From positions 310,001 to 374,000 of the forward strand of contig NZ_JAFIDN010000003.1 in assembly GCF_017921895.1 (NCBI RefSeq): DNA of 64,000 nucleotides, given 5' to 3'. The notes beneath the pieces were generated by a model. The model made no database searches, had not been told where the DNA came from, and was given only the letters and a program-made list of their open reading frames with translations. The stretch comes from Natronogracilivirga saccharolytica. GTDB taxonomy: Bacteria > Bacteroidota > Rhodothermia > Balneolales > Natronogracilivirgulaceae. Below are positions 35,140 to 40,198 of this stretch, piece after piece. The first letter of the stretch is position 1; each line of letters starts with the position of its first letter. The translations under genes were made by a program, and so were the position numbers.

Positions 35140-36735
35140 TCAGTATAACTCTGATTCATTCCGGTGTTCTTCCCTTAGAAGGTCATTGACCGTTTTTACC
35201 GGACAAAATGTAGAACCGGGAACTTCAACAAAAACGGTATTCCAGAAAGCCATACTACCGTTCCACAAGCCCGGGAGTTCAAGTGCTTTCAGGTCCCGGC
35301 CCTGATAGGACTTCATCGAAATAAAGCCGGTTTCCGGGTCACGATAATACTGCAGATCAAAGGGATGGCCCTTGTAATCACGAAGAGAACAGACCAGATC
35401 AACCGGATTGAAATGGGTGGATGACTCGAATATTTTTCGCTGTTGTACATCCTCCATATTGACTTGTGCACTTTCAACGATTTGAAGGGATGTTGTACCG
35501 TCATCATGATTGACTATGAACGGTCCGCCTCCCGGCTCTCCTTCATTTTTCACCATCCCGCAAACGCGGATAGGGCGGTTCAGCCGGTTGTACAGCCATC
35601 GAATCACCAGTTTGTCATCGCTGCGCTGCTTTTTGGCTTCAGCAATCTCATCAGGCAGGTCGATGAATAATTCTGACCGGAGGAACGCGATGATTTCATC
35701 CAGGATATGGACCGGCACTTCACCGCGGTCAAGCTCTTTCAGATAGTAGAAAATCTTGTCCTGAATGGTGAGCAGATATCCGCCGATCAGCTTTTTATAG
35801 GTATGGGTAGTTTCCTTGAGCCGGTCGGGGACAACGTTGTCAATATTTTTAATGAAAACGATATCGCCCTGCAGCTCTTCAAGGTTTACCAGCAGTGCGC
35901 CATGTCCGCCAGGTCGAAATACCGCATTTCCCTCATCATCCAGAAAAGGCTGATTTTCAGGATCGGCAGCTATGGTGTCGGTTTCAGGTTTCTGAAAGGA
36001 TGTTTCCACGTGAAAGCGGGTATCATCAGATTCAAACTTGCTGCGTACAGACTCCAGCCTCTGGTAAAACAGCTTTTCGTGCTCCGGTGAAATGGTAAAG
36101 TGAATGCGGATGGAGCCGTTTTCAGGACGTGTATAGGCAATGGCCTCTGCAAGATGTTCTTCCAGCGGAGCCCGGCGGTGATCATCGTACCGGTGGAACG
36201 GGATCAGGGCTTTCGGAAGTGATGCCAGTCCCAGGCCCCTGTTTTCGAGAACAAAGGACAGCAATGTGTGATAATCGCCGCTTTTTTTCAGTTCAGCCGG
36301 ATCCTTGCCCGCTTTCTTAAGTACTTCAACCAGGTCTTCATAAAAAGCAAAAACCTCCAGGTTGTCCAGAAATGTTTTGGCAAACCGGACATCTTCGTGA
36401 TCCTTGTTCGCTTCAAAATACTGCGGAGTAAGCTTTTCCGGCTCATTTAGCATGGACTGGAGCACCTTGAACATCCTGCTTGCCGCTCCAGAAGCCGGCA
36501 CAAACTTCATAACCCTTCCCTCTTTTTGTGCCTGATGGAAGCGCTCAGTCAGATGAGGTTTCTGGTCTTCTGACAGGTCAAGAATTCCGTCACCTATGGT
36601 CGCCGGCCTGTCGATTTCAAGGTTGGAAAAACCTTTCCGGAACCGGTCAAGCTGGGATTGAACATCAGCAGGGGAAATACCGTGTTCCTTGATTTGCTGG
36701 TCAAGTTTTTCAGAAAACCGTTCGCTCATACTCAT
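35140..36735 (-). CDS. DUF4301 protein, likely nucleotidyltransferase relative
   Basis: A 531-residue cytoplasmic protein of the Bacteroidota family DUF4301 (PF14134), function not assigned. I see signatures like those of UTP-sugar-1-phosphate uridylyltransferases. KFVPASGAASRMFK (77-90) resembles the GGxGTRL nucleotide loop, LPKALIPFHRY (173-183) resembles the PKPL sugar-phosphate motif, and FRPGGHGALLVNL (273-285) followed by IKNIDN (295-300) matches the PGGHG and NVDN motifs of the UDPGP/UAP fold. So it may activate or sense a nucleotide or sugar phosphate. The link is mine, not established. No clear partner gene is adjacent. Confidence 0.85.
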   Translation of the reverse strand: MSMSERFSEKLDQQIKEHGISPADVQSQLDRFRKGFSNLEIDRPATIGDGILDLSEDQKPHLTERFHQAQKEGRVMKFVPASGAASRMFKVLQSMLNEPEKLTPQYFEANKDHEDVRFAKTFLDNLEVFAFYEDLVEVLKKAGKDPAELKKSGDYHTLLSFVLENRGLGLASLPKALIPFHRYDDHRRAPLEEHLAEAIAYTRPENGSIRIHFTISPEHEKLFYQRLESVRSKFESDDTRFHVETSFQKPETDTIAADPENQPFLDDEGNAVFRPGGHGALLVNLEELQGDIVFIKNIDNVVPDRLKETTHTYKKLIGGYLLTIQDKIFYYLKELDRGEVPVHILDEIIAFLRSELFIDLPDEIAEAKKQRSDDKLVIRWLYNRLNRPIRVCGMVKNEGEPGGGPFIVNHDDGTTSLQIVESAQVNMEDVQQRKIFESSTHFNPVDLVCSLRDYKGHPFDLQYYRDPETGFISMKSYQGRDLKALELPGLWNGSMAFWNTVFVEVPGSTFCPVKTVNDLLREEHRNESELY

Positions 36736-36921: not shown

Positions 36922-37659
36922 TTATTGTTCCTTGCTGATTACCGACCCGGAAGTGATCATGTAGAAACGGGCACCTGGGGTGTCCGGAAGAGTGTGTGAT
37001 CCGGTAAAACTGCCGAATGCGGGCATGATGATACTATTGTTTCGGACCCTGAAGCACGGCAATGTCACCGTCTGGCGGGCACGTCCGCGGATGCGGCATG
37101 AGGGATGCAGGTGGCCTGCAATGTAAGTCTGGTCATCCTGCGCTGGTGGCTCATGCGTCATCATGAAGGGACCGGCCTGAAGTGTGCTGACGCACTCCAA
37201 TCCCAGTTGATGGTATGTTTCCTGATGCATAATGTCGTGGTTTCCCATGACAAGGATCATCTCCGGTTTGCGGAAGTGAGTGTCCCGCCACGTGTCAAAA
37301 GCCTTCATTACTTTACTGATACTGCTGTTTTCCGTGCTGTGAAACAAGTCCCCCAGAAATATGATGCGGGTAACCGATAAATCACTTATCAGCGCATGCA
37401 GCCGCAGCAGGTCGTCATCCGTACCTTTGCCGGGTACCGGAATGCCCTGCTGCTGGAATGTTTCGGCTTTACCAAAATGGGTGTCTGAAAGAATGAGCGT
37501 GCCGCCAGCCATCGCCTGATTATTCCGGGAGGGTTCGGATGCATCAGGCCAGTAAATCGCTTTTTGCGGAAGGAGCCAGAGTGTCTCTCCGGCTGCCTGC
37601 ACGACACATCCACGGGAAAAATCGTATCTGTTCTGACTGAATAATTCAGGTTTTTGCAT
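36922..37659 (-). CDS. pdeM: PdeM, ligase-associated metallophosphoesterase
   Basis: A 245-residue calcineurin-fold phosphoesterase of the ligase-associated DNA damage response set. Metal motifs are LILSDTHFGKAET, IIFLGDLFHS, MGNHD and GHLHPSC, with the family tail AFGSFTGSHTLPD. PdeM homologues are nucleases or phosphodiesterases normally found with a DNA ligase, an Lhr-type helicase and a beta-CASP exonuclease. Here only the helicase (5 bp upstream) is present. The gene starts at an ATG opening MQKPELFSQNRYDF. About 190 bp of sequence without a gene separates it from the DUF4301 gene downstream. Confidence 0.88.
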   Translation of the reverse strand: MQKPELFSQNRYDFSRGCVVQAAGETLWLLPQKAIYWPDASEPSRNNQAMAGGTLILSDTHFGKAETFQQQGIPVPGKGTDDDLLRLHALISDLSVTRIIFLGDLFHSTENSSISKVMKAFDTWRDTHFRKPEMILVMGNHDIMHQETYHQLGLECVSTLQAGPFMMTHEPPAQDDQTYIAGHLHPSCRIRGRARQTVTLPCFRVRNNSIIMPAFGSFTGSHTLPDTPGARFYMITSGSVISKEQ

Positions 37660-37664
37660 GGTAT

Positions 37665-40157
37665 TTATGAAATAATCTGTTGCTGCATTTTTTTGATGCG
37701 ATCCTCAAGCTCTTCCGAGCTCAGCTGGCCCCGCAGCCGGTCAGCAAGAATGGGAATGCAAAACGGCGACGGCTTTTGCAAAGGCTGGACTACGATCTCT
37801 TGTCCGGCAATCCGGTCCACAGCAGCTTTCAGCCGCCGGAGGTCTATCTGTCGGTTCAGCACTTCCGAGACAGCCTGCCCGATCAGCAAGTTCTCAGGAT
37901 CATACTTCCTGAAAACGTCAAAAAGCATTTCCGAACTGGCTTGCAAGTGTCTGGCACCTTTTGGATTTCCCGGGTAACCGCTGAACACAAGACCCGCCAC
38001 CCGTGCAATTTCCCGGAAGTGTCTGCGGGACATTTCCGATGCGTTGATGGCCGCGGTCAGGTCTGATACCAGGTCATCCGGAGAAAACAGGTCTTTGAGC
38101 AGATCCGGTGTAAGGTCAATATGCTGATCACTAAGCAGCTCAAAGCCGAAATCATTCATGGCGAGGGAAAAAGTGACCGGTATTTTCCGGGCAATCCGCC
38201 AGCTCACCAGTGAGGCCATGCCTTCGTGGATGGCCCGCCCTTCAACCGGATAAAAAAACAGGTGGTATCCTTCACGGCTTTTGAACTGCTCTGCAAGCAA
38301 TTCATTATTCCTGGGAATGCGCGATCTTTCCGACTGTACGGTAATTATTCGGGCGATAGCTCTGGATTCGGCTGTGTCAAAAACACCTTCCGAAAGTTTC
38401 TCAAACACGGCCCTGATTTCACCTGCAAGCTGAGAGCTGAGCTGCATCCGTCCGCCCATCCACCGGCTGACAATGCCCCGCTTTTTCTTCGAACGCCTGA
38501 CGTATACGGTCATGTCTTTCAGGCGCACGATAGTGAGCCATTTTCCTGCGAACAAAAATACGTCGCCACTCCGCATGCGTGAAATAAAAGACTCTTCAAT
38601 TGTTCCGAGAAAGCCTCCCTTGAGATACTGCACTTTGAGGACAGGATCGTCCACTATGGTTCCGATCGAAAGCCGGTGCCGCCTGAGCTGCTTTTTGTCT
38701 GTCAGAGCGTACAGGCCGCCGGTATATTCCAGCTTTTTGTAATCCGGGTAGGACCGAAGCGCCTCTCCGCCGGTACTCAGAAACCGCAGCGCCCACTGCC
38801 ACTCCGCATCTGTCAGATTCCGGTAAGTCACCGTTTTCCGGGTCATTGCCAGTGTATCATCCGGACTGAATCCGTTTCCTGCGGCCAGTGTCGACAAAAA
38901 TTGCAGCAGGACGTCAAGCGGCTTGTCATATAGCGGCCGCGACTCGATACGGTTTGCAGATGCCGCGCGGTGCAGAGCATCAGCTTCAATGAGTTCCATT
39001 CCGTGAGTAGGCACAAACCAGATCCGGCTTTCGGATCCGGGCTGGTGTCCGCTTCGCCCGGCCCGCTGGAGATAACGGGCCACGCCCTTCGGGCTTCCGA
39101 CTTGTATTACGGTTTCGACCGGACTGAAATCTACTCCCAGATCCAGACTCGATGTGCTGATAACCACCTTCAGTTTTTCATCCCTGATGGCCTGCTCCAC
39201 CCATTCACGCAGTGACTTGTCTACCGACCCATGGTGAATGGCTATTTGTCCGGCCAGTCCCGGTTCGTATTCAAGCAGTTTCTGGTACCATACTTCCGTT
39301 TGTGACCGCGTGTTGGTGAAAAGCAGTGTTGTCCTGCTGTCGCCAATTATCTCTTCCACTTTGGGCAGCAGTTTAAGCCCCATGTGGCCGGCCCATGGAA
39401 AACGATCGGCGCGATCGGGAAGCAGGGTCTGCATCCGGATTTTTTTCTTAACTCCGGAGCGTATGAGCTTGAATTTCTGTTGCTGTTTATGATCGCTGCC
39501 TGCGAGGACGTTCATCGCCTCTTCAAGATTTCCAATCGTGGCGGACATCCCCCAGACGGAAAGCTCCGGCTGCAGATATCGCAAGTAGGCGAGGGCGAGT
39601 TCGGTCATTATACCGCGTTTGGAGCCTGTGAGCTCATGCCATTCGTCAGCAACTACCGTATCAAGACTGGAAAACAGCTCCTGGTTTTTGGAACCCGAGA
39701 TAAGTACATGAAGACTTTCGGGAGTGGTGATGAGGCAATCCGGCGGCTTTCTGGTAATGGATGTCCGGGTTGCTGATGAAGAGTCACCTGTGCGTCTTTT
39801 GATATTCCAGTCTGTTTCCAGTTCGGCACAGATACGCTTCAGTGATTCTTCGGTGTCACGCGCCAGCGCACGGAGCGGTGTGATCCAGATGACCTTGATT
39901 TTCCGTGATGAGCGTGAGCTGACACTTTTTCCGGTCAGTTTTTCAATTATGGGAAGCCAGATGGCAGCGGTCTTGCCGGTACCGGTGGGCGCGTTCAGTA
40001 AACCGGAGTAACCCTCAAGATATGCCCGGTATGCTGCAACCTGATGTTCAAAGGGTTCCCACTTCCTTCCGGAATAAAAACGCTGCATCAGCGACGGAGA
40101 AAGCTCACTGTTCTTTTTGGGATGACGGATGTTATCAGTTGCCGGACGCTCTTTCAT
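37665..40157 (-). CDS. Lhr-like ligase-associated DEXH-box helicase
   Basis: A large superfamily 2 helicase of about 830 residues, of the ligase-associated Lhr type that unwinds DNA in repair. Motif I is APTGTGKTAA, motif II DEWHELTGSKRG (DEWH rather than DEAH), motif III MSATIGN, and motif VI QRAGRSGHQPGSESR. A C-terminal Lhr-core domain follows (ARVAGLVFSGYPGNPKGARHLQAS). The start is unclear: a GTG opens MQTVLIAMKER, and I prefer the ATG 7 codons later (MKERPATDN). It lies 41 bp after a histidine kinase gene and 5 bp before pdeM, so all three may share a transcript. Confidence 0.9.
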   Translation of the reverse strand: MKERPATDNIRHPKKNSELSPSLMQRFYSGRKWEPFEHQVAAYRAYLEGYSGLLNAPTGTGKTAAIWLPIIEKLTGKSVSSRSSRKIKVIWITPLRALARDTEESLKRICAELETDWNIKRRTGDSSSATRTSITRKPPDCLITTPESLHVLISGSKNQELFSSLDTVVADEWHELTGSKRGIMTELALAYLRYLQPELSVWGMSATIGNLEEAMNVLAGSDHKQQQKFKLIRSGVKKKIRMQTLLPDRADRFPWAGHMGLKLLPKVEEIIGDSRTTLLFTNTRSQTEVWYQKLLEYEPGLAGQIAIHHGSVDKSLREWVEQAIRDEKLKVVISTSSLDLGVDFSPVETVIQVGSPKGVARYLQRAGRSGHQPGSESRIWFVPTHGMELIEADALHRAASANRIESRPLYDKPLDVLLQFLSTLAAGNGFSPDDTLAMTRKTVTYRNLTDAEWQWALRFLSTGGEALRSYPDYKKLEYTGGLYALTDKKQLRRHRLSIGTIVDDPVLKVQYLKGGFLGTIEESFISRMRSGDVFLFAGKWLTIVRLKDMTVYVRRSKKKRGIVSRWMGGRMQLSSQLAGEIRAVFEKLSEGVFDTAESRAIARIITVQSERSRIPRNNELLAEQFKSREGYHLFFYPVEGRAIHEGMASLVSWRIARKIPVTFSLAMNDFGFELLSDQHIDLTPDLLKDLFSPDDLVSDLTAAINASEMSRRHFREIARVAGLVFSGYPGNPKGARHLQASSEMLFDVFRKYDPENLLIGQAVSEVLNRQIDLRRLKAAVDRIAGQEIVVQPLQKPSPFCIPILADRLRGQLSSEELEDRIKKMQQQIIS

Positions 40158-40198
40158 GGCTATCAGAACAGTCTGCACGGCAACCGGGTTTCCTCTGG

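Follow-up and report, generated by a model that had tools for sequence, protein, structure and literature searches.

The described enzymes closest to the protein family DUF4301 are the eukaryotic UGP type (PF01704; for instance, 3r2w from human, 5weg from sugarcane and 2oef from Leishmania), UAP1/AGX1/AGX2 (1vm8, 1jv1), the Leishmania USP (3oh1, 8tgs) and the GlmU-type uridylyltransferases. USP is characterized by broad sugar use, which makes it a model for the specificity of DUF4301. For the UGP of A. nidulans (AnUGP), the published account (PMC10470519), to which all AnUGP residues below refer, lists Leu121, Gly123, Gly124, Gln198 and Gly227 as uridine contacts, Lys135, His228 and Lys403 as phosphate contacts, Asp258 as the Mg ligand, and Asn256, Asn329, Asn331 and Glu307 as sugar contacts.

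We analysed a stretch of 64,000 nucleotides from Natronogracilivirga saccharolytica (Bacteroidota), hereafter the window. On its minus strand, a 531-aa ORF, stop included, exactly fills positions 36735-35140 (Table 1), whereas the plus-strand translation of the same interval has stops throughout. The encoded protein passes the gathering cut-off of Pfam DUF4301 (PF14134) with 692.5 bits versus 27; an NCBIfam scan matched no family, and a PHROGs search gave no match. The genome encodes one DUF4301 copy. The full-text literature searched has nothing on the function of DUF4301; one paper names the family, for a Prevotella protein listed in a table of the rumen metaproteome, and neither PF14134 nor its InterPro accession IPR025393 was found. 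The family is present in 51 of the 296 genomes sampled within the phylum of the window, and also occurs in Thermodesulfobacteriota, Myxococcota, Fibrobacterota, Spirochaetota, Planctomycetota and Calditrichota. The nearest relative of the window protein is a deltaproteobacterial one (L032, 52% identity), and in the tree the window protein is placed near Deltaproteobacteria, apart from most Bacteroidota. These two observations faintly point to a possible acquisition of the gene by horizontal transfer.

To the first-pass annotation of the window, DUF4301 looked like a relative of UDP-sugar pyrophosphorylases, an idea against which a fold unlike that of nucleotidyltransferases would speak. This was not the outcome of the structure search. 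The AlphaFold2 (AF2) model, built from an alignment of 60 homologues chosen for spread out of 80 loci plus the window, has a pLDDT of 93.7 and a pTM of 0.92, and its best PDB matches in a Foldseek search were UGP, UAP and USP. There were 71 matches at E≤0.001 (best 2.2e-12), and all of the 50 listed are UDP-glucose or UDP-GlcNAc pyrophosphorylases. Structural superposition with VIA-align gave closely similar results for AGX2 (Z 21.1, 353 residues, 3.6 Å) and human UGP (Z 21.0, 337 residues, 3.2 Å), the predicted fold thus being alike over about 340 residues in the case of the UGP type. Leishmania USP belongs to the same fold class, but its match is slightly weaker (Z 17-19) and its chain is longer (578-608 residues), whereas GlmU (Z 16.4-16.8) shares the nucleotidyltransferase core, with just 231-233 residues aligned. 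In a viral structure library, the sole match at E≤0.001 was the UTP--glucose-1-phosphate uridylyltransferase of Klosneuvirus. Overall, AF2, Foldseek and VIA-align predict the UGP/UAP nucleotidyltransferase fold over most of the DUF4301 protein.

The sequences, as an independent line of evidence, lead to the same superfamily. The window protein remains below the gathering cut-off of Pfam UDPGP (PF01704; 19.8 versus 22 bits), but 39 of the 60 DUF4301 homologues match UDPGP at E≤1, the best of them at 5.4e-6; two match the next family. Searches against PDB sequences gave nothing significant with the window protein in phmmer (best E 0.54); with the profile of the 60 homologues, UGP chains rank first, yet nonsignificantly (E 0.14 and worse). 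Profile-profile comparison with an alignment of 17 bacterial UDPGP proteins using hhalign yielded a score of about 52 (E 1.3e-5) for a collinear match over PGGHG to NIDN; in a second collinear segment, FWNTVFVEVPGSTFCPVKTVNDLL is paired with FENSAALRVPRSRFAPVKSCEDLL. Scored alongside its controls, the real pair reached 51.4; 100 column-shuffled profiles reached at most 39.7 (mean 18.7), and the score was 19.6 with the profile reversed and 14.8 with an unrelated kinase profile. The global mode of hhalign gave nothing useful for DUF4301 against UDPGP. With the predicted fold and the profile comparisons, membership of DUF4301 in the UDPGP/UAP superfamily is about as secure as a prediction can make it; the family forms a rebuilt branch of its own there, outside Pfam UDPGP as curated.

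Table 1. Features of the DUF4301 gene and protein in the window (AnUGP equivalents after PMC10470519)
Feature	Residues	Coordinates	Strand	Basis
DUF4301 gene	531 aa	35140..36735	-	ORF; PF14134 E 5.1e-208; AF2 pLDDT 93.7
Nucleotide-binding loop PASGAASRMF	80-89	36469..36498	-	Strand 75-79 before, helix 87-96 after (model)
Helical insertion 1, loop to PK lysine	about 91-173	36217..36465	-	AF2 model; spacing
PKALIPF	174-180	36196..36216	-	P174, K175 invariant 108/108; low-threshold hhalign alignment
Putative uridine-contacting Gln (AnUGP Gln198)	Q248	35992..35994	-	Invariant 109/109; motif
PGGHG	275-279	35899..35913	-	hhalign; G277, H278, G279 invariant 109/109
NIDN	297-300	35836..35847	-	hhalign; N297, D299, N300 invariant 109/109
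Helical insertion 2	about 304-387	35575..35826	-	AF2 model; family spacing
C-terminal stretch	415-522	35170..35493	-	PF01704 E 0.00037, 19.8 bits (cut-off 22); weak UGP-chain matches
Sugar-site Glu (AnUGP Glu307)	E421	35473..35475	-	Aligned with chain 8c0b; invariant 109/109
Sugar-site Asn (AnUGP Asn329)	N443	35407..35409	-	Aligned with chain 8c0b; invariant 109/109
PVKTVND, with catalytic lysine K514 (AnUGP Lys403)	512-518	35182..35202	-	Invariant 109/109

The four motifs on which the proposed relationship had been based, GAASRMFK (83-90), PKALIPF (174-180), PGGHGALL (275-282) and NIDN (297-300), are all there and in the order originally described. They are not chance occurrences: every homologue that spans the key positions has the same residues there; invariance was counted in an alignment of 109 homologues, or 108 for positions up to 175 because one protein (L107) is truncated. 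In the nucleotide loop, S82, G83, A85 and R87 are invariant (108/108). The motif spacing, which had been considered plausible for UDPGP enzymes, agrees in its later intervals but not between the nucleotide loop and the PK lysine. In curated UDPGP, this distance is 7-8 residues (8 in 17/17 reference sequences, counted from the Thr just before the equivalent position), whereas R87 and K175 are 88 residues apart in the window protein (family range 66-90, median 87). The abnormal spacing is due to a helical insertion of roughly 80 extra residues, with helices at 104-109, 114-124, 132-141, 146-152 and 155-163 in the AF2 model. A second insertion follows NIDN (helices 304-336, 342-355, 362-370 and 374-385), and the distance from N300 to R390 ranges from 77 to 93 residues across the family. 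Only 9-22 residues follow the catalytic lysine in DUF4301 versus 68-121 in the UDPGP references, and the C-terminal domain of the eukaryotic-type UGP is absent.

Like eukaryotic UGP, DUF4301 has the PGHG histidine, NIDN, VP..F.PVK..DLL with the catalytic lysine, and the sugar-site Glu and one Asn, but unlike UGP it carries the two insertions, lacks the C-terminal domain and has Val or Thr in place of Asn331. UAP1/AGX1/AGX2 resemble DUF4301 in the fold and in the loop arginine (GTR in UAP, ASR in DUF4301) and differ likewise by the insertions and C-terminal truncation of DUF4301; in the two UAP-type references, Asn takes the place of the PGHG His that DUF4301 shares with UGP.

The nucleotide loop of the window protein also aligns with PAAGAGSR of a UDPGP-type protein (L153) from a separate family of 1109-1112 aa, encoded at L153:712-4050 (+), L154:3892-7224 (-) and L155:866-4195 (+). 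In L153 and L154, a stretch resembling the kinase part of the bifunctional fucokinase/fucose-1-P guanylyltransferase (about 173-561) precedes a UDPGP-type domain (about 885-1005), and these proteins apparently are kinase-pyrophosphorylase fusions, of a type without a name, with a DUF4301-like nucleotide loop; in L154, the gene adjoins a GalU-like gene. The DUF4301 profile aligns with L153 in two segments, FvPaSGaAsRm on FTPAAGAGSRW and KaLlkFHkyeeesrtaleEhL on KALNPFCRIGGAHRTFIETHL, at low scores (8.2 and -2.4 bits). The two aligned segments sit a few residues apart in L153, which helps to place the loop in DUF4301.

We then mapped the AnUGP contacts onto DUF4301. Profile alignment with the AnUGP chain 8c0b pairs Glu307 with E421, Asn329 with N443 and Lys403 with K514, the latter being also placed by the low-threshold hhalign alignment, and the PGHG and NIDN blocks of hhalign equate, by motif, Gly227 with G277, His228 with H278, Asn256 with N297 and Asp258 with D299. 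S82-G83 would stand for Gly123-Gly124. Q248 is one residue off register relative to Gln198 in the gapless hhalign alignment, and was therefore assigned from motif, order and invariance. The weakest of the catalytic mappings is that of K175, the putative equivalent of Lys135; the low-threshold hhalign alignment puts K175 opposite the lysine of UDPGP, and motif, order and invariance otherwise indicate it. With this qualification for K175, the catalytic and phosphate-binding set K175, H278, D299 and K514 is complete and invariant. All mapped uridine, phosphate, Mg and sugar positions are invariant across the 109 homologues save V445, which corresponds to Asn331 (V in 101/109, T in 8/109). Homology, a shared fold (by prediction) and invariant active-site residues are thereby shown, and the kinship with UDPGP/UAP enzymes, advanced earlier as a functional hint for the family, is supported by the predicted fold, the sequence matches, and the agreement of the invariant catalytic and nearly all mapped substrate residues.

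Because the predicted fold comes with nearly all active-site residues of the enzymes that make UDP-sugars, activation of a sugar phosphate with UTP is probable, and within the UDPGP/UAP superfamily DUF4301 is likely to be a UTP-dependent sugar-1-phosphate uridylyltransferase, in other words, a UDP-sugar pyrophosphorylase. From the mapped residues, we infer the following placement of substrates and chemistry. UTP would lie on the 80-89 loop, with the base read by Q248 and the backbone of 276-277, Mg bound to D299, and the beta and gamma phosphates held by K175. H278 and K514 would keep the sugar-1-phosphate, and also the transition state, in place, and E421, N297 and N443 would bind the sugar, whose phosphate would attack the alpha phosphate of UTP, with PPi leaving. 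The two helical insertions may act as a lid or as oligomer parts, replacing the missing C-terminal domain. Several points count against this assignment, namely, the UDPGP score below the cut-off, the nonsignificant matches to PDB sequences, the mapping of Q248 and K175 from motif and weak alignment, the abnormal loop spacing, the absent C-terminal domain and the replacement of Asn331, as well as the lack of a sugar pathway among the neighbours outside Flavobacteriaceae, the strong nicotinamide-riboside context and the alternative GlmU already present.

As a first guess, the substrate of DUF4301 would be glucose or galactose 1-phosphate. Co-occurrence with sugar-nucleotide genes was assessed in 60 of the 296 genomes of the phylum, 31 DUF4301-positive and 29 negative, in 66 genomes for the alternative GlmU (TIGR03991) and in 79 for PnuC; positives were hand-picked, mainly one per genus, and negatives were also chosen by hand, so that the tallies are not random samples. 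Pathway co-occurrence yielded no sugar assignment. Only two of the 60 genomes, G190 and G249, have galU (TIGR01099) over the cut-off, and galT is found in 7/31 positive versus 5/29 negative genomes (12/60). Pfam UDPGP exceeds its cut-off in two of the 60, both times in longer proteins of DUF4301-negative genomes. The genome of the window has no galU match at E≤1e-40 and no UDPGP besides the weak match of DUF4301 itself. A role as the galactose gap filler was also rejected: the GalY predicted in the relevant account (PMC5583593) is a PF00483 protein, not DUF4301.

It is unlikely that DUF4301 is a UDP-GlcNAc pyrophosphorylase that replaces GlmU. UAP enzymes are among the best fold matches, and strong matches to the uridylyltransferase half of GlmU (E<1e-60) are found in only 1/31 DUF4301-positive versus 10/29 negative genomes. 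Furthermore, one genome, G230, has DUF4301 (E 8.3e-241) and neither form of GlmU at the thresholds used (E≤1e-20 for GlmU, E≤1e-10 for the alternative GlmU). However, the alternative GlmU is present in 30/31 positive genomes, including that of the window, which has one copy, so that the UDP-GlcNAc step is already covered; it is also found in 22/29 negative genomes (52/60 in total), and among the six additional genomes, taken from other loci, one match lies over the cut-off and one below.

The one strong genomic context ties DUF4301 to nicotinamide riboside instead of a sugar. The scan included 109 loci (L002-L110), and counts were made on 104, since L044, L050, L076, L083 and L109 were left out by the ORF caller. 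Outside Flavobacteriaceae, the listed neighbours, read by eye, include no shared operon partner and no sugar pathway; a recurrent neighbour in 13 mostly deltaproteobacterial loci lies on the opposite strand to DUF4301. In the window, genes for a calcineurin-like phosphoesterase and a large Lhr-type helicase are located upstream on the same strand (36922-40178); they are separated from each other by 5 bases and from DUF4301 by 186 bases, and thus probably form an operon of their own. In Flavobacteriaceae, by contrast, PnuC and, after it, a NadR-type nicotinamide-riboside kinase, which are not homologues of DUF4301, are encoded directly upstream of it, or the kinase is fused to DUF4301. Such adjoining or fused PnuC and/or NadR-type kinase genes are found in 49/110 loci, including 14 fusions (L017-L026, L028-L030 and L066) in three places of the tree (the Flavobacterium clade, L017 and L066), which hints at functional coupling of the two proteins. 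However, fusion is made easy by a 4-base overlap between the two reading frames, seen for instance in L078 and L060. PnuC of the linked loci scores over the TIGR01528 equivalog cut-off, whereas the linked kinase matches positions of about 160-320 out of 325 of TIGR01526, that is, the kinase half of NadR without the adenylyltransferase half. In L099, L027 and L091, PnuC precedes DUF4301 and the ORF caller called no kinase in between; the DUF4301 protein of L099 starts with MEEK, as the kinases do, which would fit a deletion of the kinase.

Transferring a nucleotidyl group to a phosphate monoester takes no other chemistry than that of the superfamily, and DUF4301 might apply it to a nicotinamide or other vitamin nucleotide, adding, in Flavobacteriaceae, a nucleotide to the product of the NadR-type kinase, for instance, NMN. 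We consider this quite unlikely, despite the linkage and the fusions. The linked rows need three changes on the tree, within essentially one Flavobacteriaceae-centred group (49/52 rows; branch support 80%), and although PnuC is found in 22/31 DUF4301-positive versus 18/48 negative genomes, it is absent from nine of the 31, that of the window included, whereas NadD is present in 60/60. On these grounds, we regard the link with nicotinamide as specific to a lineage. Kinase-only relatives of NadR occur without DUF4301 (for instance, in G088, G033 and G167), full-length NadR relatives occur in the DUF4301-positive G190 and G182, and the uridine- and sugar-site residues mapped from AnUGP are invariant regardless of whether the protein is linked. 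Displacement of NMN adenylyltransferase is likewise unsupported by the distributions of PnuC, NadR and NadD; none of these adenylyltransferases (NadD/NadR/NadM) is among the structure matches listed, a listing that does not exclude them. That a UDPGP-fold pyrophosphorylase was recruited to the PnuC/NadR-kinase salvage operon of Flavobacteriaceae and there adds a nucleotide to the kinase product, making a dinucleotide such as NAD or its uridine analogue, is very doubtful; if true, it would be an NMN nucleotidyltransferase without relation to NadD/NadR/NadM. It is also very unlikely that DUF4301 is catalytically dead or regulatory and binds UDP-sugar or UTP, as the unusual loop spacing and the missing C-terminal domain might suggest, because retention of K175, H278, D299 and K514 in 108-109 homologues from several phyla would not be expected of a dead enzyme.

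With UDP-sugar pyrophosphorylase as the likely activity of DUF4301, a nameless family would become a predicted enzyme that is directly assayable, with named residues to mutate.
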